A stretch of DNA of 64,000 nucleotides, from positions 33,311 to 97,310 of the IMG/VR virus record IMGVR_UViG_3300047321_000445. One strand, written 5' to 3'. Shown here piece after piece: positions 1-62,161 of this stretch. This stretch comes from a virus. The notes beneath the pieces are model-generated. The model saw only the letters and a list, made by a program, of their open reading frames with translations. It was not told the DNA's origin and ran no database searches. Made by a program: the position numbers and the translations under genes. Position 1 is the stretch's first letter, and each line of letters starts with the position of its first letter.

Positions 1-1074
1 GACCGTGCCGCCGAGGCCCTGCGCGCGGCCGGCTGGACCGTCGTCATCGACATCGACGAGGACACCCGGCGCAGCTTCGCCGAGGCCGAGGCGGACCGCG
101 TGGAGCGCGCAGGGAACCGCGCCGACCGGTTCGACGGGTACGCCGACAACGCCGCCTCGCGCTCCGACGCCGCCTATGCCGGGGTCAAGCGGATCGCCGA
201 CGGGATACCGATGGGCCAGCCGATCCTGGTCGGCCACCACAGCGAGGCCGGGGCGCGCCGGGACGTCGCGCGTATGGACGCCGGGATGCGCCGCAGCATC
301 GACGAGGGCGACAAGGCCGCGCACTGGGCCAGCCGCGCCAAGGCCGCAGGCTCGTACGAGGAGTTCCGGAAGGCTCCGGGGCGCACGCTGCGCCGCATCG
401 CCAAGCTGGAGGCCGACCTGCGCCGTGTCGAGAAGTGGCTGCGCGGCGAGAGCGCGGGCGGCTTCACCCGGGACCTCACGCCCGCCACGGTCGCCGAGTT
501 GAACCGGCGCAAGGAGGAGCTGGAGGAAGAGATCGGGTTCTGGCGGCACGTCATTGCCAAGGCCGAGGAAGGCGGCTTCAAGGTCTGGGGCAAGGCCGAC
601 TTCAAGCGCGGCGACTTCGTCCTGTACGGCGGCACCTGGTACGAGGTGCTGCGCGTCAACGCCAAGTCCGTGTCGATCCCGCACATCCACAACGGCACCG
701 GCCGCAGGGTCGTGCGCAAGGGCGACGGCCACGTGGCGGACTGGACCTGGTTGGCCCCGTACGACGACGTGCGCGGCCGCAGGACGGCCGAGGAGCAGGC
801 GGCTGTGGAATCGCCCGCCGAACCGGTCGCCGAGGCCGCTGTGGAGGACGAGAGGCCCGCGCGCTTCGCCGTGGCGATCGAGACCGACGAGCGGGAGTGG
901 ATGCGGTTCCACGAGCGGGACCGCGCGGTCGCCTGCGCGGCGGGCTACGGGCTCGGTGAGGAGTACGTCAAGGACACCCACGAGCCGGCTGCCGAGGCCG
1001 CTGAGGGCGCGGAGAAGCCCGCCGCCGCGGTGCCCGTGATGCACGAGGACCGGTTCCTGCCGCTGGACCGCTGA
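1..1074 (+). CDS. DUF3560 domain protein (5' end outside window)
   Basis: The reading frame is open from the first base and ends at TGA 1072-1074, so the gene begins upstream and 357 codons are visible. Residues about 27-115 carry the DUF3560 pattern common in actinobacterial plasmids and phages: ADRFDGYADNAA, then PMGQPILVGHHSE, then an Arg/Lys-rich helical stretch. Residues about 125-185 look like a coiled coil (KLEADLRRVEKW, NRRKEELEEEI). The C-terminus is acidic and Ala/Pro rich. The biochemical function of DUF3560 is unknown. A hairpin of the class found throughout the next 9 kb follows the stop. Confidence 0.85.
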   Translation, partial: DRAAEALRAAGWTVVIDIDEDTRRSFAEAEADRVERAGNRADRFDGYADNAASRSDAAYAGVKRIADGIPMGQPILVGHHSEAGARRDVARMDAGMRRSIDEGDKAAHWASRAKAAGSYEEFRKAPGRTLRRIAKLEADLRRVEKWLRGESAGGFTRDLTPATVAELNRRKEELEEEIGFWRHVIAKAEEGGFKVWGKADFKRGDFVLYGGTWYEVLRVNAKSVSIPHIHNGTGRRVVRKGDGHVADWTWLAPYDDVRGRRTAEEQAAVESPAEPVAEAAVEDERPARFAVAIETDEREWMRFHERDRAVACAAGYGLGEEYVKDTHEPAAEAAEGAEKPAAAVPVMHEDRFLPLDR

Positions 1075-1087
1075 GCCCCTGGAGTTG

Positions 1088-1124
1088 CTGCGCCCCTGAC
1101 CCGGTCGAGTGGTCGGGGGCGCAG
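1088..1124 (+). repeat. Intercistronic hairpin, variant loop
   Basis: A 14-bp stem (CTGCGCCCCTGACC with GGTCGGGGGCGCAG, one G-U pair) encloses a 9-nt loop, CGGTCGAGT. It sits just after the DUF3560 stop and has no U tract. It belongs to the hairpin family of this region but its loop shares only TCGA with the usual ACTCGACTT. Confidence 0.6.
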
Positions 1125-1170: not shown

Positions 1171-1217
1171 GGGACTTGCTTTCACGTCGGGACGGGTGTA
1201 CCTTAAGTCTTGTGAAC
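1171..1217 (+). promoter_or_regulatory. Repeated promoter copy 1
   Basis: TTGCTT (1176-1181), a 17-bp spacer and TACCTT (1199-1204) form a sigma-70-like promoter. The block is near-identical to six others, including the downstream TCTTGTGAACGGGGCA. The dyad over the -35 box is imperfect here because the left arm starts GGGAC rather than CCGAC. Confidence 0.7.
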
Positions 1218-2086: not shown

Positions 2087-2097
2087 CCGGCAGCTGG

Positions 2098-2130
2098 CTG
2101 GGGCCTGGCACTCGACTTGCCAGGCCCCAG
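2098..2130 (+). repeat. Intercistronic hairpin, ACTCGACTT loop
   Basis: A perfect 12-bp stem (CTGGGGCCTGGC with GCCAGGCCCCAG) encloses the loop ACTCGACTT. There is no U tract. Its stem sequence differs from the commoner GCGCCCCGGCC type while the loop is unchanged. Confidence 0.75.
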
Positions 2131-2168
2131 CCCCGGGCTCGGCCCCGGTCTGCGCGGGAGTCTTGGCG

Positions 2169-2217
2169 TCCGACTTGTTTTCACGTCGGGACGTATGTAC
2201 TCTAGGTCTTGTCAACG
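2169..2217 (+). promoter_or_regulatory. Repeated promoter copy 2
   Basis: TTGTTT (2175-2180), a 17-bp spacer and TACTCT (2198-2203). A CCGAC-N10-GTCGG dyad spans the -35 box, followed by the conserved AGGTCTTGT leader start. Confidence 0.75.
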
Positions 2218-2241
2218 GAACACCGACCCACGGAGGACCCC

Positions 2242-2583
2242 ATGATGATCACCCTCGACCTCCCCGAGGCCCTGAGCTACGAGATCGTCTACACGGCCGC
2301 GACGACCTGCCTGGCCAACCGTCGCTCGGGCATCTTCGAGTCCATCTCCATCCCTGCCGCCGAGAACCCCGCCGACGGCTGGAACCTGCGCCTCGTGGCC
2401 CTGAACAAGAAGGACGGCAGCACGCTCCTGGTGGACCTGCTGCGCCCCGTGGACGAGCGCTCCCCGTTCGCCGCCAGCGCCCGCGAGCGCCTGGCCGGAG
2501 GCGAGCGCCTGGCCATGCTGCTGGACCTGCTGCCCGAGCAGGCGCGCGGCGAGGTCATCCGCATCCCGCTCACCCGGGACTGA
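2242..2583 (+). CDS. Small hypothetical protein
   Basis: 113 aa; ATG 2242 follows GGAGGACCCC, a strong ribosome site shared with several genes here. The product is a soluble, mixed alpha/beta-looking protein (begins MMITLDLPEALSYEIVY, ends VIRIPLTRD) without cysteine motifs, signal or membrane segments. No family is recognised. It is first in the unit started by promoter copy 2, with the next gene separated by a hairpin with an ACTCGACTT loop. Confidence 0.7.
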   Translation: MMITLDLPEALSYEIVYTAATTCLANRRSGIFESISIPAAENPADGWNLRLVALNKKDGSTLLVDLLRPVDERSPFAASARERLAGGERLAMLLDLLPEQARGEVIRIPLTRD

Positions 2584-2599
2584 CCCACCCCCCCCAGCT

Positions 2600-2632
2600 C
2601 CGCCCCCGGCTACTCGACTTGGCCGGGGGCGG
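2600..2632 (+). repeat. Intercistronic hairpin, ACTCGACTT loop
   Basis: An 11-bp stem (CCGCCCCCGGC with GCCGGGGGCGG), extended by a U-G pair, with the loop ACTCGACTT at 2612-2620. It lies between two genes of one unit. Confidence 0.75.
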
Positions 2633-2663
2633 CCGCCCACCCACCCACCGGAAGGACCCCAGC

Positions 2664-3245
2664 ATGACGACCGCAGCCGCAGGCCTCGGCGGGCTCATCG
2701 CCCGCGCAGCCCCGTTCACCTCGTACCGCACGTACACGTACAACACAGACCCGAACGTCCCGGGCATCCAGGGGCTTGCCACGGTCGCCGAAGCCACGGA
2801 GCTGGTGCGCGCCCACGTGGCTGCTGACAGCCGGCTGCGCAGCACGGCGGCGACCCCCTACGGCGCGGTCATCCTGCACCAGGGCGACACGCATATCCGG
2901 CTGGAGCCGGGCATCGACGCTCGCCCCCAGCGGCTGACCGGGCGCCAGGCCGACGACCTGCTGCTGATCGGCCGTGTTCAGGACCGGGCGAAGGTCGTGT
3001 GGGAGCCGGCCAAGGGGTGGGCGACGGTCCAGGGCGGGGTGTGGCGCATCCCCGCGGTTTCCACGGAGCGGCTGGTCAGGCGTGGATGGATCGCCACGGA
3101 GGGCGCCGACGGGGCCCTGGTGACCGTCTCCCTGGCTGGGGTGGTCGCCCTGCAGTGGCGCTACCTCAAGGGCGAGCGGGTGTCGTCGACTGCGCGCTGG
3201 GCGGAGGACGTGGCCGAGCATGTCGTGGACGTATTCTCCTCGTGA
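2664..3245 (+). CDS. Hypothetical protein
   Basis: 193 aa; ATG 2664 follows GGAAGGACCCC. The middle reads as a small alpha/beta domain (residues about 25-95: TYTYNTDPNVPGIQG through TPYGAVILHQGDTHIRLEPG). The C-terminal half has RWRYLKGERV-like basic patches and could be a winged helix (about 145-180: ERLVRRGWIATEG with GALVTVSLAGVVALQ), though this is weak. It is second in its unit after a loop-conserved hairpin, and the next promoter copy begins immediately after its stop. Function unknown. Confidence 0.7.
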   Translation: MTTAAAGLGGLIARAAPFTSYRTYTYNTDPNVPGIQGLATVAEATELVRAHVAADSRLRSTAATPYGAVILHQGDTHIRLEPGIDARPQRLTGRQADDLLLIGRVQDRAKVVWEPAKGWATVQGGVWRIPAVSTERLVRRGWIATEGADGALVTVSLAGVVALQWRYLKGERVSSTARWAEDVAEHVVDVFSS

Positions 3246-3246
3246 C

Positions 3247-3297
3247 CCGACTTGCTTTAACGTCGGGACGCCTGTACCTTAGGTCTTGTGAACGGGG
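3247..3297 (+). promoter_or_regulatory. Repeated promoter copy 3
   Basis: TTGCTT (3252-3257), a 17-bp spacer and TACCTT (3275-3280), with the CCGAC-N10-GTCGG dyad and the conserved TTGTGAACGGGGCACACCG leader. It starts only 2 bp after the previous stop codon. Confidence 0.75.
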
Positions 3298-3328
3298 CAC
3301 ACCGCCCCGACCGACCGAGGAGGACCCC

Positions 3329-3847
3329 ATGGCCATCACCACCGCGACCGCCACCGGCCAGGCCGAAGCCGACCGCCTGCGCGCCTCGGCCCGCCAGCAC
3401 GAAGCGGACGTGATCGAGTCCCGCGACCGCTGCGACACCGACGGCTTCCTCTCCCAGTGGGCGTCCGGCCGCATGGCCGGCCTGGACTACCTCGCGGCCG
3501 AGATCGCCGAGGCGGGCGGCAAGTGGGACTTCGGCGGCCTCTTCGACCTGGAGGGCAACCTGGTCCCGGCCATCCGGCTCCAGAACCGCTACGACGGCTG
3601 GTCCTGGAAGCTCCTGGACGAGCGCGGCCGGTGCGCTGGCTGGTTCAACGAGTCCAAGGCCAAGACCGAGGAGCGGCGCGTGGCCGCCCACGCCAAGCAG
3701 GGCTTCTACGTCGGCCGCGTCCGCGTCCCGGCCAAGGCCGAGATGCAGGGCGGCAACTACTTCTCGGTGCGGGCGGTCCCGGTCCGCCTGGACGAGGGCT
3801 GGGACCCGGAGGCCGAGATCCTCGACAACGGCCAGCCCACGGCCTGA
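3329..3847 (+). CDS. Hypothetical protein
   Basis: 172 aa; ATG 3329 follows GAGGAGGACCCC. The N-terminal 45 residues are helical and charged. The centre (GLFDLEGNLVPAIRLQNRY, then WSWKLLDERGRCAGWFNES) reads like a beta-rich domain with a conserved-looking aromatic patch. No catalytic motif or membrane segment is seen and no family is recognised. It begins the longest visible unit before promoter copy 4, with two further genes downstream, each separated by a hairpin. Confidence 0.7.
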   Translation: MAITTATATGQAEADRLRASARQHEADVIESRDRCDTDGFLSQWASGRMAGLDYLAAEIAEAGGKWDFGGLFDLEGNLVPAIRLQNRYDGWSWKLLDERGRCAGWFNESKAKTEERRVAAHAKQGFYVGRVRVPAKAEMQGGNYFSVRAVPVRLDEGWDPEAEILDNGQPTA

Positions 3848-3865
3848 CACCCCGCCCCTTGGCTG

Positions 3866-3892
3866 CGCCCGGCCACTCGACTTGGCCGGGCG
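3866..3892 (+). repeat. Intercistronic hairpin, ACTCGACTT loop
   Basis: A perfect 9-bp stem (CGCCCGGCC with GGCCGGGCG) around the loop ACTCGACTT (3875-3883). Confidence 0.75.
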
Positions 3893-3929
3893 TGGCCGCC
3901 CCCGCCACAAGCCCCAGGAGTAGAGCCCC

Positions 3930-4244
3930 ATGAGCAACCCGCCCACCTCCATCGCCGACCAGCGGCAGGCCTGGAAGAGACTTCGCCCCGAGGCTCTCGC
4001 CCAGCTCGCCACGACCATGAACGCCGCCGAGATAGCCGACGCCTTCGGCGTGGCCCGCCCGGCCGTGGAGCAGCGTCTCGCGTACCACGGTCTCGTCGCC
4101 TGCGTCGGTGGCCCCACGCCCCGCCGCAAGCTCGTCCACAACCGGCTCATCCACTGCCCCGCCACCACGACGCTCGGCACCGTCTGCGGCGCGCCCCAGG
4201 AGCCTGACGGCACCTGCCGGTGGGCCCACCAGCACACGGCCTGA
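3930..4244 (+). CDS. Small HTH protein with Cys/His tail
   Basis: 104 aa; ATG 3930 lies 10 bp after CAGGAG. Residues about 28-56 (TTMNAAEIADAFGVARPAV, then EQRLAYHGL) have the spacing of a helix-turn-helix. The C-terminal 35 residues contain HCPATTTLGTVCGAPQ and CRWAHQH, a possible zinc site. It may be a DNA-binding regulator or a small structural DNA-binding protein; targets are unknown. It sits mid-unit between two hairpins. Confidence 0.7.
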   Translation: MSNPPTSIADQRQAWKRLRPEALAQLATTMNAAEIADAFGVARPAVEQRLAYHGLVACVGGPTPRRKLVHNRLIHCPATTTLGTVCGAPQEPDGTCRWAHQHTA

Positions 4245-4260
4245 CACCCCCCTCCCTGGT

Positions 4261-4291
4261 TGCGCCCGGCCACTCGACTTGGCCGGGCGCA
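4261..4291 (+). repeat. Intercistronic hairpin, ACTCGACTT loop
   Basis: A perfect 11-bp stem (TGCGCCCGGCC with GGCCGGGCGCA) around ACTCGACTT (4272-4280), located 17 bp after the preceding stop codon. Confidence 0.75.
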
Positions 4292-4341
4292 GCCGCCCCG
4301 CTCATCCATCCCCGCTCCATCACCCTCCCGAGGAGAGATCC

Positions 4342-4632
4342 ATGGACACCACCGCTGCATCCACGGCCGGCGCCGAGGACACCCGCCGCGACTGGGCCAT
4401 CGTCGCCATCACCTCCCAGTCCATCCACTGCGCCGACAGGCAGGCCGCCGAGGAGGTGGCTGAAGACCGCCCGCACCTCACGGTCGTCTCGCGGCCGCTC
4501 GGGGGCGAGTGGGAGCCGCTGTCGCAGCCGGTCGTCCCGGTCGACCTGGGGCCGCTGAGCGACGAGCAGCTGGCGGCGCTCCAGTTCGAGGCCGCGCGGC
4601 TGTTGGCGCGCCGTCAGGGCCGCGCGCTGTAG
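4342..4632 (+). CDS. Small hypothetical protein
   Basis: 96 aa; ATG 4342 follows CGAGGAGAGATC. The fold looks like a single small alpha/beta domain (RRDWAIVAITSQSIHCADR, HLTVVSRPLGGEWEPL) ending in an amphipathic helix (DEQLAALQFEAARLLARRQ). No known motif. It is the last gene of the third promoter unit, followed by a hairpin and then promoter copy 4. Confidence 0.65.
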   Translation: MDTTAASTAGAEDTRRDWAIVAITSQSIHCADRQAAEEVAEDRPHLTVVSRPLGGEWEPLSQPVVPVDLGPLSDEQLAALQFEAARLLARRQGRAL

Positions 4633-4648
4633 TTCCTGCTGAGTCCTG

Positions 4649-4679
4649 CTGCGCCCCGGTCGACATGGCCGGGGCGCAG
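4649..4679 (+). repeat. Intercistronic hairpin, variant loop
   Basis: A perfect 11-bp stem (CTGCGCCCCGG with CCGGGGCGCAG) with the 9-nt loop TCGACATGG. The loop keeps TCGAC but not the full ACTCGACTT. It ends a promoter unit rather than separating cistrons within one. Confidence 0.65.
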
Positions 4680-4726
4680 TCGCGTTCGGGGGTGGGCTGT
4701 GCCCTGACCAGCGGGTTTTCACCCCT

Positions 4727-4773
4727 AGGCTTGCATGCACGTCGGGACACGTGTACTCTAGGTCTTGTGAACG
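4727..4773 (+). promoter_or_regulatory. Repeated promoter copy 4
   Basis: TTGCAT (4731-4736), a 17-bp spacer and TACTCT (4754-4759), followed by AGGTCTTGTGAACGGGGCA. The left dyad arm is altered (TAGGC instead of CCGAC), so operator strength may differ here. Confidence 0.7.
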
Positions 4774-4805
4774 GGGCAACGCCCCACCCGACCGAGGAGG
4801 ACCCC

Positions 4806-5066
4806 ATGGACACCATCGCCGCCGACAACCTGACCGGCACCTACTACCCCGCCGCCCCCGGCGCCCGCACCTGGCGCGAGGCCCGCCCCCTCTACATCGG
4901 CCGCGACCGCGTCTCGGCCGAGATCACGGCCGACCGCCAGGGCTACGTCTTCGTCGGCCTGCACATGGTCTTCGCCGGGGCCATCCCCGCCGACGTCCAG
5001 GGCAGCGCCGACGTGACCCGCTGGGCCCGCGAGGTGGCCCTGTCCACGCTCACGCTCGCCGCCTGA
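4806..5066 (+). CDS. Small hypothetical protein
   Basis: 86 aa; ATG 4806 follows GAGGAGGACCCC. A compact protein with alternating beta-like segments (ARPLYIGRDRVSAEITADRQ, YVFVGLHMVFAGAIP) and a C-terminal helix. No cysteine, membrane or catalytic motif. Function unknown. It is first of four genes downstream of promoter copy 4. Confidence 0.65.
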   Translation: MDTIAADNLTGTYYPAAPGARTWREARPLYIGRDRVSAEITADRQGYVFVGLHMVFAGAIPADVQGSADVTRWAREVALSTLTLAA

Positions 5067-5080
5067 CCCACCATCCGCCC

Positions 5081-5117
5081 GCCGCGCCCCGGCCGCTCGA
5101 CTAGCCCGGGGCGCGGC
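5081..5117 (+). repeat. Intercistronic hairpin, CTCGACTA loop
   Basis: A perfect 12-bp stem (GCCGCGCCCCGG with CCGGGGCGCGGC) surrounding a larger loop that holds GCTCGACTA, a one-base change at the 3' end of the usual loop core. Confidence 0.7.
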
Positions 5118-5138
5118 ACCCACCCCGAGAGGAACCCC

Positions 5139-5660
5139 ATGGCCATCGCAGACCTGAAGCTGCTGCCCGCCGTCGCCTTCGACCGCCCCACCCAGGACGG
5201 CATGAAGCCGCTCCCCGAGGGCTACGACCCGAGCCGGCTGACGATCGTCCGCGCCGACCAGGTGCGCACTGGGGACCTGGTCGTCGGCAGCGTCGACCAG
5301 CCCCTGAAGCGCGGCAGCCTGCTCCGCTGGGCGACGTACCTGGCGGCCGCGTACGTCGCGCAGCCGGGCCCGTACGAGGCCGACTGCGCGTCCTGCCGGG
5401 CCTGGACGTCCACGCCCGTGCCGGATGCCGAGTGGGTGTCCCTGGCCCCGCACGTCCCGCAGCTCGCGGACGAGCTGATCTCCATCGTCCCGGCGCCCGA
5501 GCCGGTGGAGGCCGCACCGCGGCCGTGCGTGCACACCTGCACCTGCGAGAACGGCCGCCTGCGGCAGACGACCCGCAGCTTCTACCCGGCCGCCATCTGC
5601 GGCGACTGTCACCGCCGTCCGTGCGGCGCCTGCCGTGACGCGGCCCGCTCGACCCACTGA
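5139..5660 (+). CDS. Cysteine-rich hypothetical protein
   Basis: 173 aa; ATG 5139 follows GAGAGGAACCCC. Residues about 1-75 resemble a small beta domain with a transfer-like loop (VRADQVRTGDLVVGS). The C-terminal third is rich in cysteine (CASCRAW, then CVHTCTCENG, then CGDCHRRPCGACRD), arranged like one or two treble-clef or ribbon zinc sites. Nucleic-acid or protein binding is plausible, but no named family is recognised. Confidence 0.7.
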   Translation: MAIADLKLLPAVAFDRPTQDGMKPLPEGYDPSRLTIVRADQVRTGDLVVGSVDQPLKRGSLLRWATYLAAAYVAQPGPYEADCASCRAWTSTPVPDAEWVSLAPHVPQLADELISIVPAPEPVEAAPRPCVHTCTCENGRLRQTTRSFYPAAICGDCHRRPCGACRDAARSTH

Positions 5661-5673
5661 TCCCACCTCACGG

Positions 5674-5708
5674 CTGCGCCCCGGCCACTCGACTTGGCCG
5701 GGGCGCAG
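5674..5708 (+). repeat. Intercistronic hairpin, ACTCGACTT loop
   Basis: A perfect 13-bp stem (CTGCGCCCCGGCC with GGCCGGGGCGCAG) around ACTCGACTT (5687-5695). This is the clearest copy of the family. Confidence 0.8.
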
Positions 5709-5729
5709 CACCCACACCGAGAGGACACC

Positions 5730-6305
5730 ATGCCCACCTTCACCTTCCCCAGCGGCGCGACCGTCGAGGCGCCCGACGGACTGCCCCTGTGTGAGCGGCC
5801 CGAGACCGTCACGGAGGACGTCGGCCGTTCCATCCTGGTCGGCCTGACCCGCAGCGACCGACCGGTCTTCTCCACCTTCTCCTGTGCCGCTTACGCCGCC
5901 CTCGGTCGCCTGTTCACCATGCGGGGGGACGTTGCCTACGACCGCCGTCGGGCCGAGCGGCTGGAGGCCCGCGGCCGGACCTGGCAGGCGGGGAACGTGC
6001 GCCGCCATGCCGACGAGCGGGAGGCGCGCAACGAACGGCTCCTGGCGCGCATGGTGGCCGACCCGGCGCCGTGCACGTGCGTGATCCCTTACGTGCCCGC
6101 TGTCGAGCTGGCTGAAGAGGTCGGGGTTCTCAAGGCTGACGTCCTGGAGAAGATCCGCGATCGTGCCGACCGGATGAGGGCGCTCGGGGGGCGGGACGTG
6201 GAGCAGCTCGTTTTCCGCCTGGGCCCCGACGGTGAGGTGCTGGTGGCGCCGATTACGGCTCTGTCGCTGCGGATGCACTTCGCCCAGCCTGCGCACCTGC
6301 GCTGA
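5730..6305 (+). CDS. Hypothetical protein
   Basis: 191 aa; ATG 5730 follows GAGAGGACACC, so a TTG 12 codons upstream inside the hairpin is rejected. The first 60 residues look beta-rich (TFTFPSGATVEAPDGLPL). Residues about 80-120 are a charged helix (RRRAERLEARGRTW, HADEREARNERLLARM). A cysteine pair CTC lies near residue 122. Function unknown. The neighbours before and after are separated by loop-type hairpins. Confidence 0.65.
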   Translation: MPTFTFPSGATVEAPDGLPLCERPETVTEDVGRSILVGLTRSDRPVFSTFSCAAYAALGRLFTMRGDVAYDRRRAERLEARGRTWQAGNVRRHADEREARNERLLARMVADPAPCTCVIPYVPAVELAEEVGVLKADVLEKIRDRADRMRALGGRDVEQLVFRLGPDGEVLVAPITALSLRMHFAQPAHLR

Positions 6306-6327
6306 CGCCTGACCCCGGACGCAATAC

Positions 6328-6364
6328 GGCCGTCTGCTGCTTCTCGACTAAGCGGCAGACGGCC
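6328..6364 (+). repeat. Intercistronic hairpin, divergent stem, CTCGACT loop
   Basis: The stem (GGCCGTCTGCTGC with GCGGCAGACGGCC, one G-U) is unrelated in sequence to the other copies, yet the loop still reads TTCTCGACTAA. This copy is key evidence that pairing and the loop core, not the stem sequence, are conserved. Confidence 0.75.
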
Positions 6365-6407
6365 GGCCCCCACCGTAGCAAGACTGAACCCCCGGAAGGA
6401 ACCGTTC

Positions 6408-7052
6408 ATGAGCACGACTACGCCCGCCAGACCGGACGTGCCCGCTCTCGCCCACGAGACCGCGCGCATCCTCGGCACTGACTGGCACGCCCAGCCGGAC
6501 ACGGACTGGGTCAGCGCCTGGGCGCTGCACCACCGGGACGGGCGCCGCGTCCGCCTGTACGGCCCGGAGTACGGCAACGAGGGCCGGCTGTACATGGAGG
6601 GACTGCTGCCGAACGCGCCCGAGGACGAGCGGCCGGACCGGACCGGCCTGGACTCCGGGAACATCTCCGTCGCTGCGTCCTCCCCGGCCCGCCGTGTGGC
6701 CGGGGAGATCACCCGGCGCCTGCTGCCCAAGCTGACCCCGGCGTGCGAGGAGTACCGCCGTCGGCTGGAGGAGCTGCGTACGGCGGAGCGAGCCCGCGTG
6801 GCGGCTGCCCGCAGCCTGGCGGAACTGCCGGGCCTGTCGGAGCCGCGCCGGAACTACCACGACCGGAGGGTGACGGCGTATCACCTGGCCTGGGACGGGC
6901 CGAGGCGCGGCGAGTGGCACGGGGCGAAGCCGTCCGCGCGGATCGACGTGGACGCAGACCGGGAGACGGCTGAGCCGCACGTGTGCATGGAGCTGCGGGG
7001 GCTGTCGCCCGAGCAGGCCGAGCGGGTGCTGCGGGCGCTCATCGAGCCGTAG
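6408..7052 (+). CDS. Hypothetical protein
   Basis: 214 aa; ATG 6408 follows GGAAGGAACC. The layout is an N-terminal domain with HHRDGRRVRLYGPEYGNEGR (residues about 43-65), a charged helix (about 110-145: EEYRRRLEELRTAERARV) and a C-terminal domain ending in a helix, LSPEQAERVLRALI. The ends resemble a phage-type protein that pairs two small beta domains, but no family is recognised. It is the last gene of the unit from promoter copy 4. Confidence 0.65.
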   Translation: MSTTTPARPDVPALAHETARILGTDWHAQPDTDWVSAWALHHRDGRRVRLYGPEYGNEGRLYMEGLLPNAPEDERPDRTGLDSGNISVAASSPARRVAGEITRRLLPKLTPACEEYRRRLEELRTAERARVAAARSLAELPGLSEPRRNYHDRRVTAYHLAWDGPRRGEWHGAKPSARIDVDADRETAEPHVCMELRGLSPEQAERVLRALIEP

Positions 7053-7065
7053 GTCTGAGCGTCGT

Positions 7066-7100
7066 GGGTGTGCCCCGGCCGGGTTGGTCGGGGCACACCC
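7066..7100 (+). terminator. Intergenic hairpin without the conserved loop
   Basis: A 15-bp stem (GGGTGTGCCCCGGCC with GGTCGGGGCACACCC, one G-U) and a short GGGTT loop. It closes a promoter unit just before promoter copy 5. Lacking ACTCGACTT, it may be a plain terminator, although there is no U tract. Confidence 0.6.
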
Positions 7101-7116
7101 ATATCTGCCTCACGTC

Positions 7117-7163
7117 CCGACTTGCTTTCACGTCGGGACTCATGCATGCTTGGTCTTGCGAAC
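7117..7163 (+). promoter_or_regulatory. Repeated promoter copy 5 (weak -10)
   Basis: TTGCTT (7122-7127), a 17-bp spacer, then CATGCT (7145-7150) instead of TACTCT, with the full CCGAC-N10-GTCGG dyad. The poor -10 box predicts lower activity for the phosphatase unit than for its neighbours. Confidence 0.6.
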
Positions 7164-7191
7164 GACACCAGCGACCAGGGATCGGAGATCC

Positions 7192-7896
7192 ATGCCTCAC
7201 GCACGCGCTCAGCTCATCGGCGGCCGCGACCGCCAGTGCGACGCCACCGCCGTCTACACGAAGCACAACAAGGTCCGCGCCTACGTCCTCCTGGACGGCA
7301 TCGGCGACACCACCGACGTCCACCTCTGGACCCTGCTCACCGCCCGCCGCCTGGCCTACCAGGCGGCAAACGACGCCGACGCCGAGGCCGGACTGCGCAC
7401 AGTCCACGCCCGGATCGCCGAGGAGCGCGCCCCGCTCGGCTTGGCCGCAGACTTCGAGCCGTCCGCGGTTGCCGTCGTCGCGGTCGCCATCCCCGGCGAG
7501 CTGCTCCAGGTCGCATGGTGCGGCGACGCCCGCGCCTACGTCCTGCCCGAAGGCGGCGAGTTGCGGCGGCTGACGACCGACCACAACAAGCGCCAGTGGC
7601 TGATCGACCAGGACCTCCCGTTCGGCCCGTACGACCGTAACCAGGTCCTCTCGTACCTCGGCGACACCGCCGAGGACGCGTCGCAGCGGATCGGGACGGC
7701 ACTCGGTCCCGCCTCGGGCCGCCTGCTGCTGGCCTCGGACGGCGCGTACGAGCCCCTGGAGGACTCGTGCATGGACCTGTCGGCCTACCTCGTGGGAAGC
7801 CCGCGTAAGGCCGCCAGGGACTTCACGCAGGCCGCCATCGACCGCGGCTCGGCCCGCCCGGACAACGCCACGGCCCTGGTCGTCGACTTCGGCTGA
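7192..7896 (+). CDS. PP2C-type serine/threonine phosphatase
   Basis: 234 aa, close to the length of a minimal PP2C domain. Metal-dependent PP2C phosphatases remove phosphate from Ser/Thr of proteins. The visible motifs are WCGDARAYVL (residues about 105-114, the GDSRA box), LLLASDGAYEPL (about 180-191, the SDG box) and RPDNATALVV (about 222-231, the DNxT box), which supply metal-binding aspartates. The N-terminal RDRQCDATAVY aligns with the ED/QD box but is weaker. No membrane or receiver domain is attached and no kinase is encoded nearby, so it may act on host Hanks-type kinase targets. ATG 7192 follows CGGAGATC. Confidence 0.8.
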   Translation: MPHARAQLIGGRDRQCDATAVYTKHNKVRAYVLLDGIGDTTDVHLWTLLTARRLAYQAANDADAEAGLRTVHARIAEERAPLGLAADFEPSAVAVVAVAIPGELLQVAWCGDARAYVLPEGGELRRLTTDHNKRQWLIDQDLPFGPYDRNQVLSYLGDTAEDASQRIGTALGPASGRLLLASDGAYEPLEDSCMDLSAYLVGSPRKAARDFTQAAIDRGSARPDNATALVVDFG

Positions 7897-7910
7897 TCCC
7901 CGCTCACCGT

Positions 7911-7941
7911 CCGCCCCGGCTACTCGACTTGGCCGGGGCGG
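7911..7941 (+). repeat. Intercistronic hairpin, ACTCGACTT loop
   Basis: A 10-bp stem (CCGCCCCGGC with GCCGGGGCGG), extended by a U-G pair, around ACTCGACTT (7922-7930). Confidence 0.75.
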
Positions 7942-7979
7942 GCCGCCTCTTCCCACCACACCCACTTGAACGGAGAACC

Positions 7980-8549
7980 ATGGACGCTCACGAGTCCCGC
8001 AACTTCCTGGCCGGCCTGGCCAAGAGACTCCCCGCCGAGGTCACCGTCGAAGACCGCGAAGGGCCGGTCACCCGCGAGGCACTGCTGCGGGTCATCCGTA
8101 ACGACCTGCTGCCGGTCCTGGTCCGCAACCCGCTGCACCGCCACCCGCGCAGGCAGCTCCCCGCCCTCTACGGCCCGGTCGCGGCCGGCCTGCGTCAGGC
8201 CCTGGTCGCCTACAGCTCGGGCCGTGGAGAGGACTTCCTGCCCCGGCTGGAGCAGGCTCTCGAGGCCGCGGCGGCCGCCCGCAAGGCGGACGACTACGAC
8301 CCCGCCACGAAGTACGTGACCGCGACGTCCTGGGCAGTCTCGTGCACCCTGGGCGCGCACATCGACGGCGCGATCCTCAACGTCCACGACCTGGACCACG
8401 AGGCGGTCAACGGCCACGGCGGCTGGGGCGTGGTCGTCTGGCACCCGGTCCACGACAAGCGGCAGTTCCCCAGCCAGGACGCAGCTCGCGCCTACGCCCT
8501 GCGGATGGGGCTGCTGCAGCGCTTCGTGCCGAGCCGCGTGCTGGTCTGA
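7980..8549 (+). CDS. Hypothetical protein
   Basis: 189 aa; ATG 7980 follows ACGGAGAACC. The N-terminal half is helical (SRNFLAGLAKRLPAE, TREALLRVIRNDLLPVLV). The C-terminal half has a beta-like WGVVVWHPVHDKRQFPS segment and a final helix. No catalytic or binding motif is clear. It is co-transcribed with the PP2C phosphatase through a hairpin junction, so a functional link is possible but unsupported. Confidence 0.65.
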   Translation: MDAHESRNFLAGLAKRLPAEVTVEDREGPVTREALLRVIRNDLLPVLVRNPLHRHPRRQLPALYGPVAAGLRQALVAYSSGRGEDFLPRLEQALEAAAAARKADDYDPATKYVTATSWAVSCTLGAHIDGAILNVHDLDHEAVNGHGGWGVVVWHPVHDKRQFPSQDAARAYALRMGLLQRFVPSRVLV

Positions 8550-8559
8550 CGGTCCCTCG

Positions 8560-8594
8560 CTGCGCCCCGGTCACTCGACTTGACCGGGGCGCAG
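8560..8594 (+). repeat. Intercistronic hairpin, ACTCGACTT loop, covariant stem
   Basis: Stem CTGCGCCCCGGTC with GACCGGGGCGCAG around ACTCGACTT (8573-8581). Compared with most copies, one C-G pair near the loop is replaced by T-A on both arms, a compensatory change. Confidence 0.75.
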
Positions 8595-8641
8595 CCGTGT
8601 TCGGGGACGGGCAGGCAGCACTCTCCATCTTTCTTGGGGAA

Positions 8642-8690
8642 CCGACTTGCTTTCACGTCGGGACACGTGCATACTAGGTCTTGCGAACGG
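8642..8690 (+). promoter_or_regulatory. Repeated promoter copy 6
   Basis: TTGCTT (8647-8652), a 17-bp spacer and CATACT (8670-8675), with the full dyad over the -35 box and the conserved GGTCTTGCGAACGGGGAAC leader. Confidence 0.65.
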
Positions 8691-8731
8691 GGAACGGAAA
8701 GTCCGGCCCCACCAACACCGAGGAGCACACC

Positions 8732-9409
8732 ATGGCTAAGACCCCCGCCTACACGATCACCACCACCGACGACACCAAGGTGGACGAGCGGACCGAGGGC
8801 AAGGCGGCCGACAAGCTGGCCCAGAAGCTCACCGCCGAGACCGGCCTGGTCCACCGGGTCTACACCCCGACCGGCAAGCTCCGCCTGGAGACCGAGGTCG
8901 TCGAGCCGGCCCCGGCCGATGAGGTCCCCTCGGTCGACATCAGCGAGGTCCCCGAGGCCGCGCCGGTCGAGGCCGAGGCCGAGGCGGAGGTCGAGGAGGT
9001 CGTGGAGGCCGAGGTCGAGGCCGAGGAGGTCGAGGAGGCCCCCGAGACGGCCCCGGTCGAGGTCCGCGAGATGAACATCGTGGTGCCCAGGGACTTCGTC
9101 TCCTACGCGACGCTGATGGACCTGCTCAAGAACGACGACGACGCGGTCCGCGAGGACGCCGCGTCCGAGTGGGCCTTCCGCCTGGAGGTCTACAAGCGGC
9201 GCACGAACGCCAAGGACGCCTCGAAGCGGATCGTCGGCCCGGCCATGGCGGCGGCGCTGGAGCGCGGCGAGACCACCGACGGGCGGACCATCGCCTCCCT
9301 GGCCAAGCGGGGCCTGGTGGAGCGCGGGGAGGGTCTGGCCTTCACGGTGAACGAGGCCGGGCGCGCGGCCCTGGCCGCTGCGGTCGCCGCGGTGACCGAC
9401 ACCGAGTGA
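8732..9409 (+). CDS. Acidic-repeat protein with possible winged helix
   Basis: 225 aa; ATG 8732 follows CGAGGAGCACACC. Residues about 70-110 are an almost pure Glu/Val/Ala stretch (VEAEAEAEVEEVVEAE and on), a likely flexible acidic linker. The C-terminus (about 170-220: AAALERGETTDGRTIASLAK, RGLVERGEG, FTVNEAGRAAL) has the order of a MarR-like winged helix wing and last helix. It could bind DNA or mimic it through the acidic stretch; neither is shown. It is alone in its promoter unit. Confidence 0.7.
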   Translation: MAKTPAYTITTTDDTKVDERTEGKAADKLAQKLTAETGLVHRVYTPTGKLRLETEVVEPAPADEVPSVDISEVPEAAPVEAEAEAEVEEVVEAEVEAEEVEEAPETAPVEVREMNIVVPRDFVSYATLMDLLKNDDDAVREDAASEWAFRLEVYKRRTNAKDASKRIVGPAMAAALERGETTDGRTIASLAKRGLVERGEGLAFTVNEAGRAALAAAVAAVTDTE

Positions 9410-9420
9410 TCGTCCCTGAG

Positions 9421-9454
9421 GTTGCGCCCCGGCCACTCGACTTGGCCGGGGCGC
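9421..9454 (+). repeat. Intercistronic hairpin, ACTCGACTT loop
   Basis: An 11-bp stem (GCGCCCCGGCC with GGCCGGGGCGC) around ACTCGACTT (9435-9443). It closes the unit and is followed within 15 bp by promoter copy 7. Confidence 0.75.
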
Positions 9455-9468
9455 GACTGCTTCCCTGG

Positions 9469-9512
9469 CCGACTTGCTTTCACGTCGGGACGTGTGTACT
9501 CTAAGTCTTGTG
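9469..9512 (+). promoter_or_regulatory. Repeated promoter copy 7
   Basis: TTGCTT (9474-9479), a 17-bp spacer and TACTCT (9497-9502), with a CCGAC-N10-GTCGG dyad. The leader diverges after TCTTGTGA. Confidence 0.75.
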
Positions 9513-9554
9513 AGGGACCGGAACGACCGGCCCACCAACCACCAGGAGGACGCC

Positions 9555-9932
9555 ATGACCGCCACCGCCACCGAGACCCTGGCCCCCGGCACCGTCGTGC
9601 GCGCCCCCCTCTACCGCAACGGCCAGCCCGTCGGCCGACCCCGCCGCGGCATCGTCCTGCGCACCTTCGCCAGCGACGGCAACCCCAAGTCCGGCTACCT
9701 CGTGTGGTTCTACACGCTCGGGGCGGCCCACAAGGACGGCCAGGGCGACACCAGCACGGTCGGCCTGGTCTTCCCGCGCGAGGCCGAGCGCGTCGGCACC
9801 GTCGCCGACATGGGCGACCGGGTGCTGGCCAACGCCGGTAAGGGCCTGCGCGACTGGCCCACCGGCCGCCAGGCCTGGAACGAGATCTACCGCGTCTACG
9901 TCGCCCGGAAGCGCGCGGCCGCGCAGGCCTGA
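9555..9932 (+). CDS. Small hypothetical protein
   Basis: 125 aa; ATG 9555 follows CAGGAGGACGCC. It is a basic protein with an SH3-like beta pattern in its first 70 residues (LAPGTVVRAPLYRNGQPV, RRGIVLRTFASDGNPKSGYL) and a helical C-terminus ending KRAAAQA. No family is recognised. It begins the last unit of the accessory array. Confidence 0.65.
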   Translation: MTATATETLAPGTVVRAPLYRNGQPVGRPRRGIVLRTFASDGNPKSGYLVWFYTLGAAHKDGQGDTSTVGLVFPREAERVGTVADMGDRVLANAGKGLRDWPTGRQAWNEIYRVYVARKRAAAQA

Positions 9933-9943
9933 CGGCCCCCCTC

Positions 9944-9980
9944 GCCGGGCCCCGGCCACTCGACTTGGCCGGGGCCCGGC
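9944..9980 (+). repeat. Intercistronic hairpin, ACTCGACTT loop
   Basis: A perfect 14-bp stem (GCCGGGCCCCGGCC with GGCCGGGGCCCGGC) around ACTCGACTT (9958-9966). The outer stem differs from other copies on both arms. Confidence 0.8.
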
Positions 9981-10614: not shown

Positions 10615-11364
10615 TCAGGCGCCGGGAGCCGCCTCGAACGTGTACTCGTAGCCGACGACCATGCGGCGGGGCAGGCACCATTCCCCGTACTCGATGACCC
10701 CCTGCCCGTCCCACAGCCGGTGCGCGCCGGCCAGGATGGGCGCCCCGATCGGCAGGGCGAGGAAATTCGCTTCACGGGCGTCGGCGTCCCGGCCGTGGAC
10801 GTCGTCGCGGCCGTTGGTGATGCGGCGTCCGGTGGCCTGCTGGATCCTCAGCAGCAGTCCGGGCGACGTGTGCGGGGACGTCGACAGCAGCTCGGGAACG
10901 CTCCCGGCGAGGTGCGCCGGGTACCAGGTGACGAAGAGCCCGGTTCGCTGCTTGCCCTTGCCGGTGTGCCACTGACGGCGCACCACCTGGTCGCCCTCGC
11001 CGAGGTCGAGGAGCTCGGCCACGTACTGCGGGGGTTTGACCATCTCGGCCGCTGTGACGATCATCGTCTCGCCCTCGGCGAGGACGCTGCCGGTGCGCAG
11101 GACGCGGGTGATCCGCTCGTAGGAGCTGGGGACGACCTCGGGTGCGTTCGCAACGAACGTGCCGCGGCGGCTGGTGGTGATGTAGCCCTCCACCTGGAGC
11201 TGGTCGATTGCCCGCCCGAGGGTGGCGATCGAGACGCCGTGCGACTCGGCCAGCTCTCGCTGTCCGGGCAGCTTGGCGCCCTCCTGATAACCGTCCTCGC
11301 CGTCGAGGATGCTGCGTCGGATGTCGGCCGCTACGCGCATGTACGGGTGTTCGGTCTCGGGCAT
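10615..11364 (-). CDS. GntR-family repressor with UTRA domain (KorSA-like)
   Basis: 249 aa, the normal length for GntR/HutC regulators. Residues about 8-75 are the winged helix (RVAADIRRSILDGE, LPGQRELAESHGVSIATLGR, GYITTSRRGTFVA). Residues about 95-240 form a UTRA effector domain, with the AHRLWDGQGVIEYGEW box near the end. In Streptomyces integrative and conjugative elements, such proteins (KorSA of pSAM2) repress transfer functions. It is transcribed away from the DUF6415 operon. TGTCCTAGGACA-type palindromes lie in the shared intergenic region and again before the transfer genes, so autoregulation plus control of both operons is inferred. Confidence 0.9.
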   Translation of the reverse strand: MPETEHPYMRVAADIRRSILDGEDGYQEGAKLPGQRELAESHGVSIATLGRAIDQLQVEGYITTSRRGTFVANAPEVVPSSYERITRVLRTGSVLAEGETMIVTAAEMVKPPQYVAELLDLGEGDQVVRRQWHTGKGKQRTGLFVTWYPAHLAGSVPELLSTSPHTSPGLLLRIQQATGRRITNGRDDVHGRDADAREANFLALPIGAPILAGAHRLWDGQGVIEYGEWCLPRRMVVGYEYTFEAAPGA

Positions 11365-22169: not shown

Positions 22170-24293
22170 ATGGCCCGCGTCACCAGCACCACCAACGGCA
22201 AGACCGAGCAGGTCAACACGGCGCAGGCCACGGACCTCGTGCCGGTCGGCAAGGGGGGTGTCGTCTCCCACCTGCTCGGCAAGGCACTGCCGTACGCCTC
22301 TCCGTGGCTCGGCGCCGGTGCACTCCCGCCGCTCGCCGGGCTCGCCACGAACACCATGTGGGGCGACACCGCCGTCCACGCCGGGTTCGCCTCCGCAGGG
22401 CTCGGGATCGGCGGAGCCGTCCTCTCCGCTGTGACCTGGCAGGTTGCCGGGGGGAACAACAAGTTCCGTCGCTTCCGGCGCGCCCAGGCCACCGCGAGCG
22501 TGGCGGCGGGGATGGGCTGGCTGACGGCCGCGACCTCGGCCGGCCCGTTCGGCCACCCCATGATCGACCTGTGGCTGATGGGGGGCGGCCTGTTCGCCGC
22601 CTCCTGGAACATCCGGTCGGTCATGCGGAACGCCCACGACGAGACTGAGCAGGTCGAGGGCAAGAGCGGACTGGGCAAGATCGCTGAGGCGATCGGGCTG
22701 GAGAAGGTGAAGGTCAGGGACGCCAAGGGCAACGGCAAGGGCATGGTGAAGGCGGCCATCGAGGTCGCTCCCGGGGCGACCCTGGACGACGTGCAGGCGG
22801 CTCTCCCGAAGCTGACCGCGGCCCTGCACGTCCCCGGCTCCGGTGCCACCGTCACCAAGGACCTGGAAAACGCTGGTGAGGGCGTCATCAACCTGCGTGT
22901 CGCAGACCTGCTGAAGGACGGAGTCGAGTTCATACCGCCCATCCGGCTGGGCATGCTGCCGAACGAACCGCTGCCGCTCGGCCTGTACGCGGACGGCGAA
23001 GAGTTCATCATCAACCCGTTCGACGCCGAGATCCTCCAGCACCTGCTGGTCATGGGCGTCACCGGCGCAGGCAAGAGCGAGTTCGCCCGCGGCCTGCTCG
23101 CCCACCTGATGACCCGCCGCAAGATGACCGTGATGGTCGTCGACACCGCCAAGGGCCGTCAGTCCATGGGGCACATTGCCCACGGGGTGGACTGGTTCGT
23201 CACCACCACCCGCGAGGCAAAGCACCTGCTCAAGGCCCTGCCCGGGGCCATCCAGGCACGCGGCGACGTCCTCGCGGAAGAGGGCCTGGACCAGTGGACA
23301 CCCAAGTCCAGGCTGAACGCCATGGTGGTCTGGGTCGAAGAGGCCGCCGACCTCGCCGACTTCGCCGAGCTGGACGAGATCGCCCGCAAGGCGCGCTCGG
23401 TCGGCATCTGGCTGGTGATCTCGCTCCAGCGCGCGACCTGGACGAACGTGTCCACCGACGTCCGCGCCAACCTCCAGGCGTCCGCGTGCTTCGGCGTGGA
23501 CACCGCAGGGGACGCCGGATTCGGCCTGCCCGCCCGCGTGACCGACGCAGGCGCCATCCCGGACTGGGGCGCCACCCGACCCGGCTACGCCTTCGCCACC
23601 GGCATGGGAATCCCCGATAACCGCTGGACGATGGAGTGGCGCTCGGGCCTGACCGACCGGGAGTTCCTGTCCGCGCTGGTCACGGCCGCAACACCGTTCC
23701 GTGACCCGCTGGACGACACGACCGCGAAGGCCCTGGGTTTGGCGTACGCGCAGCGCACCCGCCCGGGCACGAACCGGATGAACATGCAGGCCAGCGAGGC
23801 GCAGGAGGCCAGCTCCGCTCAGCAGCTGCTGGCCGCCGCGCACGTGCTGGGCGAGGCACTGGAGGACGCCGGAGTGGACCTGAACAGTCTGCCCACGGGC
23901 AGCGACGACGAGCGCATCGAGGTGGAGATGGAGGACGCATACGCCGAGGTCATGGGCATGATCCCGGACGATCCGGAGCCGGGCGCGCCGTACGCGAACC
24001 TGGATCTGGACGACGACATGCCCGAAGACACCGACACCGGGATGGAGTTCGCGGAGCCCGAGAAGCTTCCGCCTGCGGACGCCCGGCGCCTGCTGCACGA
24101 GCAGCTGCACGAGTGGGCGCAGCGGGACCGGCTCACGTTCCAGCCTGCGGACCTGGCCCCGGTCACGGTCGCAGCCGGCCGGAAGCGGCCGTGGCTCCAG
24201 GGCGAGTTGAAGCGGCTGGTGGAGGCGGGTGTGCTGCGGCACGACTCGCACGGCGAGTACGACATCGTCCAGTCGCCGCTTGTGCCCGCATAG
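22170..24293 (+). CDS. FtsK/SpoIIIE-type DNA translocase (TraB-like)
   Basis: 707 aa; ATG 22170. The N-terminal 150 residues hold membrane segments (LPPLAGLATNTMWG, AGLGIGGAVLSAVTWQVAG, LWLMGGGLFAASW). The RecA-like motor has Walker A GVTGAGKS at about residue 296 and Walker B (MVVWVEEAADL) near 383. The last 60 residues are a winged helix similar in position to the FtsK gamma domain (LHEWAQRDRLTFQPADLAPV). Streptomyces TraB proteins move double-stranded plasmid DNA between mycelial cells without a relaxase. Context (DUF2637, GntR operators) favours conjugal TraB over chromosomal FtsK. Confidence 0.92.
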   Translation: MARVTSTTNGKTEQVNTAQATDLVPVGKGGVVSHLLGKALPYASPWLGAGALPPLAGLATNTMWGDTAVHAGFASAGLGIGGAVLSAVTWQVAGGNNKFRRFRRAQATASVAAGMGWLTAATSAGPFGHPMIDLWLMGGGLFAASWNIRSVMRNAHDETEQVEGKSGLGKIAEAIGLEKVKVRDAKGNGKGMVKAAIEVAPGATLDDVQAALPKLTAALHVPGSGATVTKDLENAGEGVINLRVADLLKDGVEFIPPIRLGMLPNEPLPLGLYADGEEFIINPFDAEILQHLLVMGVTGAGKSEFARGLLAHLMTRRKMTVMVVDTAKGRQSMGHIAHGVDWFVTTTREAKHLLKALPGAIQARGDVLAEEGLDQWTPKSRLNAMVVWVEEAADLADFAELDEIARKARSVGIWLVISLQRATWTNVSTDVRANLQASACFGVDTAGDAGFGLPARVTDAGAIPDWGATRPGYAFATGMGIPDNRWTMEWRSGLTDREFLSALVTAATPFRDPLDDTTAKALGLAYAQRTRPGTNRMNMQASEAQEASSAQQLLAAAHVLGEALEDAGVDLNSLPTGSDDERIEVEMEDAYAEVMGMIPDDPEPGAPYANLDLDDDMPEDTDTGMEFAEPEKLPPADARRLLHEQLHEWAQRDRLTFQPADLAPVTVAAGRKRPWLQGELKRLVEAGVLRHDSHGEYDIVQSPLVPA

Positions 24294-34422: not shown

Positions 34423-35922
34423 ATGCTCGCTATCGCTGACCCGCTCGCCATGGCTGCTGACCGGCTGGAGGGCCGTTCTGAGGCTGGCGACCGGTACCCC
34501 ACCCCGCACGATCTGGCCCGCGAACTGGACCCGAAGATCGTGCGCACGCCCGCGCTTGAGCTGCTCGACGAAGTCCTCATCGACTGCGCCGAGGGCCGCA
34601 CGAACCGGCTGATCTTCTCCATGCCCCCGCAGGAGGGCAAGTCGCAGCGCGTCAGCCGCACCTTCCCGGCGTGGCTGCTGTCCCGCGACCCCGACCTGCG
34701 TATCGCCATCGCCTCCTACGAGGCGAACACGGCGCGCCGCTGGGGCCGCGCGGTCCGCAACGACATCAAGGGAAACCCGGACAAGTTCGCGCTGCGGATC
34801 CGCCGAGACACCTCCTCCGCCATTGAGTGGCAGGTCGAGGACCACCAGGGCGGCGTGTACAGCGTCGGTATCGGGGGTGCCCTCACCGGCCGCCCGGTCG
34901 ACGTGTTGATCATTGACGACCCGGTCAAGGGCCGTGCACAGGCCGAATCGGAGACGTTCCGGCAGGCCGCATGGGACTTCTGGACCGACACGGCCCGCAC
35001 GCGTTTCGGTCCCAACACCGTCGTTGTCGTGGTCCTCACCCGCTGGCATGAGGACGACCTCGCCGGGCGGCTCCTCGCGCAGGACGTCCGCAAAGAGTGG
35101 CGGTACATCAACATCCCGGCCGAGGCCGACCACGACCCCTACAAGGGGGAGACGGATCCGCTCGGCCGCGAGCCGGGCGAGTTCCTGTTGTCCGCCCGTG
35201 GCCGCACCGCCAAGGACTGGCAGGACACCAGGGACGACGTCGGCTCGCGTACCTGGACGTCGCTGTACCAGGGCCGGCCTGCCCCGGCCGAGGGCGGCCT
35301 GTTCAAACGAGGGGACTGGCGCTGGTACGTCGCCCCGAAGGCGGTCCGCCGCCAGGACGGCACGATGTGGGTCCACGACGCGGACGAGATCATCCAGTCG
35401 TGGGACATGGCGTTCAAAGACACCAAGGGCTCGGACTATGTCGTCGGGCAGGTGTGGGCCCGGTTCGGGGCCAGCGTGTACCTGCTGGACCAGGTCCGTG
35501 ACCGGCTCGACTTCCCGGCCACGCAGCAGGCCGTCAAGGCACTGTCGGCGAAGTGGCCGCAGACGTTCGCAAAGCTCGTCGAAGACAAGGCGAACGGCCC
35601 GGCGATCATCGCCCAGCTTCAGGCGACCGTGCCCGGTCTGATCCCGATCACCCCGAAAGACTCCAAATACGCGCGCGCGTCGGCCGTGGCGCCGTTCGTC
35701 GAAGCGGGAAACGTGTGGCTGCCCGATCCGTCGTTCGCCCCGTGGATCGAAGACTTCGTCTCCGAACTCGGAGGCTTCCCGAACGGCAGCAATGACGACC
35801 AGGTCGACACCACCAGCCAGGCCCTCCAGCGGCTGCTGGCCGGACAGTTCAGCGCCGACCAGGCCATGGACTGGCTCCGCGGCTACGGCAACAACCCGAA
35901 CCCCGAGGGAAGGCAGCAGTGA
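34423..35922 (+). CDS. Terminase large subunit
   Basis: 499 aa; ATG 34423 follows GCAGGAGGCGTTCC. The ATPase half has a Walker A variant in MPPQEGKSQR (residues about 67-75) and Walker B VLIIDDP (about 161-167). The RNase H-like nuclease starts at QSWDMAFKDTKGSDYVVGQV (about 325) with later acidic residues ED (KLVEDKANGPAI) and D (GSNDDQVDT). This motor cuts and pumps phage DNA into proheads. Length and layout are typical of terminase_6-type actinophage enzymes. Confidence 0.93.
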   Translation: MLAIADPLAMAADRLEGRSEAGDRYPTPHDLARELDPKIVRTPALELLDEVLIDCAEGRTNRLIFSMPPQEGKSQRVSRTFPAWLLSRDPDLRIAIASYEANTARRWGRAVRNDIKGNPDKFALRIRRDTSSAIEWQVEDHQGGVYSVGIGGALTGRPVDVLIIDDPVKGRAQAESETFRQAAWDFWTDTARTRFGPNTVVVVVLTRWHEDDLAGRLLAQDVRKEWRYINIPAEADHDPYKGETDPLGREPGEFLLSARGRTAKDWQDTRDDVGSRTWTSLYQGRPAPAEGGLFKRGDWRWYVAPKAVRRQDGTMWVHDADEIIQSWDMAFKDTKGSDYVVGQVWARFGASVYLLDQVRDRLDFPATQQAVKALSAKWPQTFAKLVEDKANGPAIIAQLQATVPGLIPITPKDSKYARASAVAPFVEAGNVWLPDPSFAPWIEDFVSELGGFPNGSNDDQVDTTSQALQRLLAGQFSADQAMDWLRGYGNNPNPEGRQQ

Positions 35923-43083: not shown

Positions 43084-43110
43084 CCGGCCGAACAAGAGAG
43101 GGGTGGGCTC

Positions 43111-62130: not shown

Positions 62131-62161
62131 GGGGGCCGCCCAAGTCGAGTGGGCGGCCCCC
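62131..62161 (-). repeat. Intercistronic hairpin, ACTCGACTT loop (minus strand)
   Basis: A perfect 11-bp stem (GGGGGCCGCCC with GGGCGGCCCCC) whose loop reads ACTCGACTT on the minus strand, the strand of transcription here. It shows that the family is oriented with the mRNA and occurs 50 kb from the main array. Confidence 0.8.

Follow-up and report, generated by a model that had tools for sequence, protein, structure and literature searches.

Hairpins at gene ends are commonly regarded as terminators that can replace one another, stem strength being all that matters, and the question raised by the locus described here is why a family of such hairpins should keep one loop sequence while the stems around it change freely. 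The family lies in a 64,000-nucleotide stretch of viral DNA (the window), which covers bases 33311-97310 of the 97,310-bp IMG/VR virus record IMGVR_UViG_3300047321_000445 (G000). Across dozens of unrelated genes and several mobile elements, we found a free stem around a fixed loop, together with a lineage-wide switch of a single loop base.

Hairpins sharing one loop at gene ends

The nonamer ACTCGACTT occurs ten times in the window, versus 0.25 matches expected from shuffles. Nine copies are on the plus strand (2110, 2612, 3875, 4272, 5687, 7922, 8573, 9435 and 9958), confirming all nine hairpins of the original prediction, and the tenth is on the minus strand at 62142-62150, within a 12-bp hairpin. 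Every copy sits in a stem measured at 12-16 bp, and the folding energy of four example copies was 4.3 to 7.1 standard deviations below that of shuffled sequences. The outer letters of the nonamer, originally also taken to be invariant, form the closing pair, which is mostly A-T, with G-C, C-G and T-A also found; the invariant part is thus the inner 7-mer, CTCGACT. The hairpins near 5081 and 6328, credited earlier with the core only, both have the complete loop; the closing position is a G/A mismatch in the first and a T-A pair in the second. Two further copies had been listed as keeping TCGA: that at 1088 is a reversed hairpin whose loop reads GGTCGAG in the transcript sense, and that at 4649 is degenerate, with a GTCGACAT core. 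The whole G000 record holds 18 CTCGACT hairpins at gene ends, on both strands and oriented with the direction of the gene, and one further hairpin, found by its loop, directly 3' of a promoter-like repeat at record position 32912. The gene-end hairpins of the window, apart from the reversed copy, are as follows.

2096-2132, plus strand: hairpin, loop CTCGACT, before the promoter-like repeat at 2171 (covariance model, 49.6 bits)
2600-2632, plus strand: hairpin, loop CTCGACT, intercistronic (stem and covariance model)
3860-3898, plus strand: hairpin, loop CTCGACT, intercistronic (stem and covariance model)
4257-4295, plus strand: hairpin, loop CTCGACT, intercistronic (stem and covariance model)
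4650-4679, plus strand: degenerate gene-end hairpin, GTCGACAT core, before the promoter-like repeat at 4730 (inspection and folding)
5082-5116, plus strand: hairpin, loop CTCGACT, G/A in place of the closing pair, intercistronic (45.4 bits)
5673-5709, plus strand: hairpin, loop CTCGACT, intercistronic (stem, covariance model and folding)
6327-6365, plus strand: hairpin, unrelated stem, T-A closing pair, loop CTCGACT, intercistronic (stem, model and folding)
7064-7098, plus strand: strong gene-end hairpin without the loop motif, before the promoter-like repeat at 7118 (inspection and folding)
7909-7943, plus strand: hairpin, loop CTCGACT, intercistronic (stem and covariance model)
8559-8595, plus strand: hairpin, loop CTCGACT, before the promoter-like repeat at 8643 (stem, model and folding)
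9420-9458, plus strand: hairpin, loop CTCGACT, before the promoter-like repeat at 9470 (stem and covariance model)
9944-9980, plus strand: hairpin, loop CTCGACT, intercistronic (covariance model, 60.4 bits)
62131-62161, minus strand: hairpin, loop CTCGACT, 3' of a minus-strand gene in a separate region (48.9 bits)

The stems covary around a fixed loop

Among the genome contigs, an exact 17-mer scan returned one true relative, Streptomyces cavernae NZ_RPDJ01000011.1, whose region has the genes it shares with G000 in the same order, together with the promoter repeat and about 17 hairpins. Pattern scans combined with a covariance model added three viral carriers of about 98 kb, IMGVR_UViG_2934965791_000001 (G301), 3300010218_000004 (G303) and 3300046499_000591 (G304), and additional copies were found at the end of the Streptomyces linear plasmid NBC_00708 unnamed2, bringing the carriers to six. 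In this Streptomyces-linked group of viruses and plasmids, such a hairpin follows the majority of the small accessory genes.

In an alignment of 37 copies from G000 and S. cavernae, selected partly for pairing, 91.1% of cells were paired, 13 of the 14 pairs had changes on both sides, and the covariation score was 0.639, versus 0.172 after shuffling and no more than 0.141 when partners were slid. Because of that selection, the test was repeated on every xTCGACx lying 10-50 nt past a stop codon called on its own strand, with no pairing requirement; in G301, G303 and G304 together, 66.4% of cells were paired (versus 47.9 ± 1.5%), with 208 double changes (versus 111 ± 8). Compensation can also be followed gene by gene: in S. 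cavernae, the stems behind the orthologues of record genes 41290-41859 and 42865-43242 have exchanged C-G for A-T and G-C for T-A, and the loop core CTCGAC is unchanged in both.

Over the six elements, the loop is exactly CTCGAC(C/T) in 69 of 71 gene-end hairpins, the remaining two being TTCGACC, in S. cavernae, and CTCGGCT. Three permuted control motifs gave no gene-end hairpins, and chance is excluded by these controls, the shuffle expectation and the repeated covariation test. Loop base 7 differs between lineages, with T in 19 and C in 2 of the G000 copies (n = 21) versus C in 60 and T in 3 of those in the other four genomes (n = 63). Selection on RNA pairing together with a sequence-specific loop, as first proposed for these hairpins, is strongly supported by covariation that persists in the wider alignment and by the conservation of the loop in relatives.

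The family is restricted to mobile gene arrays

G000 encodes a terminase large subunit (window 34423-35922), a tape measure protein (47364-51419) and an FtsK/TraB-like protein (22170-24293) with 72% identity to proteins encoded by pFP3 and pFP4, Streptomyces plasmids among whose annotations are capsid, portal and terminase genes. These similarities make G000 a probable phage-plasmid, with a Streptomyces-like organism as its presumed host. The hairpin was found neither in pFP3 and pFP4 nor in the close terminase relatives G003 and G004; related phages that are without this gene array are also without the hairpin. Genes common to G000 and G301 stand in a different order.

A general Streptomyces terminator loop can be ruled out, since the stem-loop pattern was not in excess over its reversed control in 295 Streptomyces genomes. 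Covariance-model searches of genus, order and phylum genome samples, run under strict filters that may miss rare carriers, returned only the S. cavernae array and isolated marginal matches. Besides S. cavernae, exact 17-mer scans of genome and viral contigs gave single matches, mostly with short stems, which we took as chance, and among the many single matches of the viral pattern scans the only multi-copy records were G301, G303 and G304. The family is therefore restricted to mobile gene arrays and is not a general host element. No Rfam 15 model matched the window at or above its gathering score, and a literature search for the loop strings found only unrelated oligonucleotides and no phage or comparable RNA hairpin, in agreement with the earlier remark that no named element with this loop is known.

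The hairpins are placed by the stop codon and mostly lack a U tract

The loop begins at a median of 26-30 nt past the stop codon in each of five genomes (interquartile range 24-29 in G000), and the hairpin itself roughly 10 nt past it; the distance to the next start codon is far more variable. When stems are read in the sense of the transcript, G-U pairs outnumber A-C mismatches 22 to 10 (p = 0.05), which lends modest support to an RNA of that strand.

In the 9 nt after the stem the mean number of T is 1.56, versus 2.63 (p = 0.0015) for other hairpins at gene ends that lie outside the arrays. The claim that U tracts are absent holds as a tendency, with 0-1 T in these 9 nt in 36 of 62 loop-bearing hairpins of the five genomes, and fails for the 18 of 62 that have at least three. 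Two roles tied to translation were considered and rejected. For stop-codon readthrough or a bacterial selenocysteine insertion sequence, the in-frame extensions range from 0 to 300 codons, many being shorter than 30, and the stops are mostly TGA; for occlusion of the next ribosome site, the interval from loop end to next start is mostly longer than 30 nt.

Promoter-like repeats and a single reversed hairpin

Seven near-identical promoter-like repeats, each consisting of CCGACTTGcTTTCACGTCGGGAC followed by TACTCT and GTCTTGTGAAC, split the stretch into several units, contrary to its original description as one promoter unit. The first repeat and the reversed hairpin before it are:

1088-1124, plus strand: reversed hairpin, transcript loop GGTCGAG, at the 3' end of the DUF3560 gene, before the repeat at 1173
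1173-1215, plus strand: promoter-operator-like repeat, first of seven (putative promoter, from its sequence)

The other six begin at about 2171, 3248, 4730, 7118, 8643 and 9470. Some hairpins consequently separate cistrons, and others close a unit, the expected place for a terminator. This placement, and the frequency of U-less structured transcript ends in Streptomyces (PMC8269248), would suit terminators as well as the processing, stability or attenuation elements originally preferred to them. A by-eye impression from G000 and S. cavernae that the loop is retained in intercistronic hairpins alone, with relaxation where a unit ends, was not borne out by an automatic count in five genomes, made with imperfect gene and promoter calls (30/43 versus 20/28, p = 1.0). 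The promoters of G301, G303, G304 and plasmid NBC_00708 unnamed2 carry a different repeat, paired GTGTAGCTACAC, and the hairpin family is thus independent of a single promoter type. A regulator gene at 10615-11364 on the minus strand, whose product is 39% identical to that of a pFP3 gene annotated as a GntR-family transcriptional regulator, is a candidate to act on the repeats.

Exactly one hairpin of opposite sense, with the transcript loop (G/A)GUCGAG complementary to the others, was found in each of the six carriers, four of whose records are covered only in part. It directly precedes a promoter repeat in five of the six. Its place in G000 and S. cavernae is the end of the DUF3560 gene, which has a loop hairpin just upstream and the reversed one just downstream; G301, G303 and G304 have it at a different locus. 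The DUF3560 (PF12083) gene occupies window 1-1074, starting at record position 32894, and is found in many similar plasmid arrays.

Other Streptomyces elements have gene-end hairpins with repeated loops of their own. In the MobF plasmids NZ_CP107769, NZ_CP061283, pZL1 (NC_023316) and a relative, such hairpins carry the loop ATGGCA and lie beside the MobF relaxase gene, and a few ATGGCA hairpins with unrelated stems stand just after a promoter-like TAATGT/TAATAT and before a gene. Other Streptomyces DUF3560 regions (L273, L274) have small numbers of gene-end hairpins with the further repeated loops ACCCGATA and AGCCA.

What the loop may be for

A free stem around a near-invariant loop suggests that something in the cell reads the loop. 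We tentatively favour the view that the hairpins are RNA elements of gene 3' ends, probably transcribed and folded, in which a GC-rich stem of about 12-16 bp would act as a U-less (I-shaped) terminator or as a barrier to 3'-exonucleases for one small cistron; hairpins between cistrons would have to be leaky enough for the downstream gene to be expressed. The CUCGAC(C/U) loop would be recognised by a trans-acting protein or RNA that is borne by the element or tuned to it, and this reader might adjust termination, 3'-end processing or stability over the whole array. A lineage-wide shift of base 7 on independent stems is what co-evolution with such a reader would produce, whereas copying should homogenise the stems too. 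Several observations weigh against this interpretation. The excess of G-U over A-C is marginal, and the hairpin at 7064 and several in equivalent positions in G301-G304 are without the loop, which is thus not required at each gene end. Moreover, a search for the reader by shared gene content found only SSB, DUF3560 and small unknown proteins among the families present in most carriers.

Possible, though rather doubtful, is that these are ordinary U-less intrinsic terminators with a readerless loop, either fast-folding and stable or inherited as one terminator copied through the array. Many structured transcript ends of S. clavuligerus have no U tract (PMC8269248), the tail is T-poor, and the plasmid array with the loop ATGGCA retains a near-identical inner stem, as copying would leave it. 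Here, however, the stems have diverged to unrelated sequence with compensatory changes around a fixed loop, and host-chromosome hairpins show no excess of the loop, although a loop favoured for folding alone should be in excess there. A DNA-level element, such as a gene-cassette boundary, a recombination site or a folded single-strand signal, would explain the reshuffled gene order between G000 and G301, and fits with hairpins that follow individual genes and with the MobF relaxase gene adjoining the plasmid array. We nevertheless consider it improbable, as the position is tied to the stop codon and not to the gene that follows, stems read in the transcript sense have more G-U than A-C, and an ordinary duplex DNA-binding site would not allow a free stem sequence.

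In a kissing-loop regulon, the one hairpin of opposite sense in each element would serve as an antisense hub pairing with all CUCGAC(C/U) loops, so that each phage or plasmid would be an RNA regulon in which many cistron ends are controlled by one complementary hairpin. Each carrier has kept such a hairpin with at least six of seven complementary bases, mostly directly before a promoter, and the reversed copies of G000 and S. cavernae differ by compensatory stem changes. This explanation is unlikely, since only about two to three loci are independent, the sense-strand stem of the G301 copy has C-A mismatches, and base 7 lacks the covariation expected from pairing (U-G in G000, C-A in S. cavernae); with four of the six records covered only in part, the reversed hairpin remains a lead. 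Mimicry of the tRNA T loop, with a host T-loop enzyme binding or modifying the hairpin loop, seems very improbable. The T-loop consensus is UUCRANY, of which CUCGACY matches six of seven positions, and one S. cavernae copy reads TTCGACC. However, nearly all copies have C as first loop base (tRNA position 54) and most lack the closing G-C of tRNA, which removes contacts that shape the T loop; nor would a host enzyme readily explain the lineage-wide change of base 7.

Comparison with known systems

As in a canonical intrinsic terminator, a GC-rich hairpin lies downstream of the gene, but the U-rich tract after the stem is missing on average. A duplex DNA operator or stoperator has conserved arms, whereas here the arms vary with compensation and the loop is fixed. 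Lambda boxB and the histone 3' stem-loop are short mRNA hairpins whose loop is read by a protein, the histone one lying at the 3' end. Both differ from the present family in stem and loop, boxB having a short stem and a pentaloop in place of 12-16 bp and 7 nt; boxA and N were not searched for. In the early region of the Streptomyces phage phiC31, the terminator hairpins between genes likewise have no poly-U tails, and they are not known to share a fixed loop.

U-less structured transcript 3' ends (HS-U-lack, I-shaped terminators) are common in Streptomyces, as the available part of the S. clavuligerus study indicates (PMC8269248), and most copies of the present family have the same anatomy, a strong GC-rich hairpin with a loop of a few nucleotides and few U after the stem. 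That part of the study describes no conserved loop, whereas the present hairpins keep one 7-mer over many genes and several elements. Cluster M mycobacteriophages, actinobacterial phages of about 80-100 kb, also have small genes separated by stem-loops upstream of conserved repeats (CR3/CR4; PMC7953290). The available description, through which alone they were compared, gives neither loop sequence nor covariation, and the combination of fixed loop and free stems is absent from the passages considered of either account. The 17-bp palindromic repeats of cluster O mycobacteriophages, likewise present in tens of copies per genome, are the inverse case, with invariant arms and a variable centre as in a DNA site (PMC4351075); in the present family it is the arms that vary, around an invariant centre. 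With its loop tag, the family flags the accessory gene arrays in which it occurs, and makes a trans-acting reader of mRNA 3' ends directly testable in Streptomyces-linked phages and plasmids.

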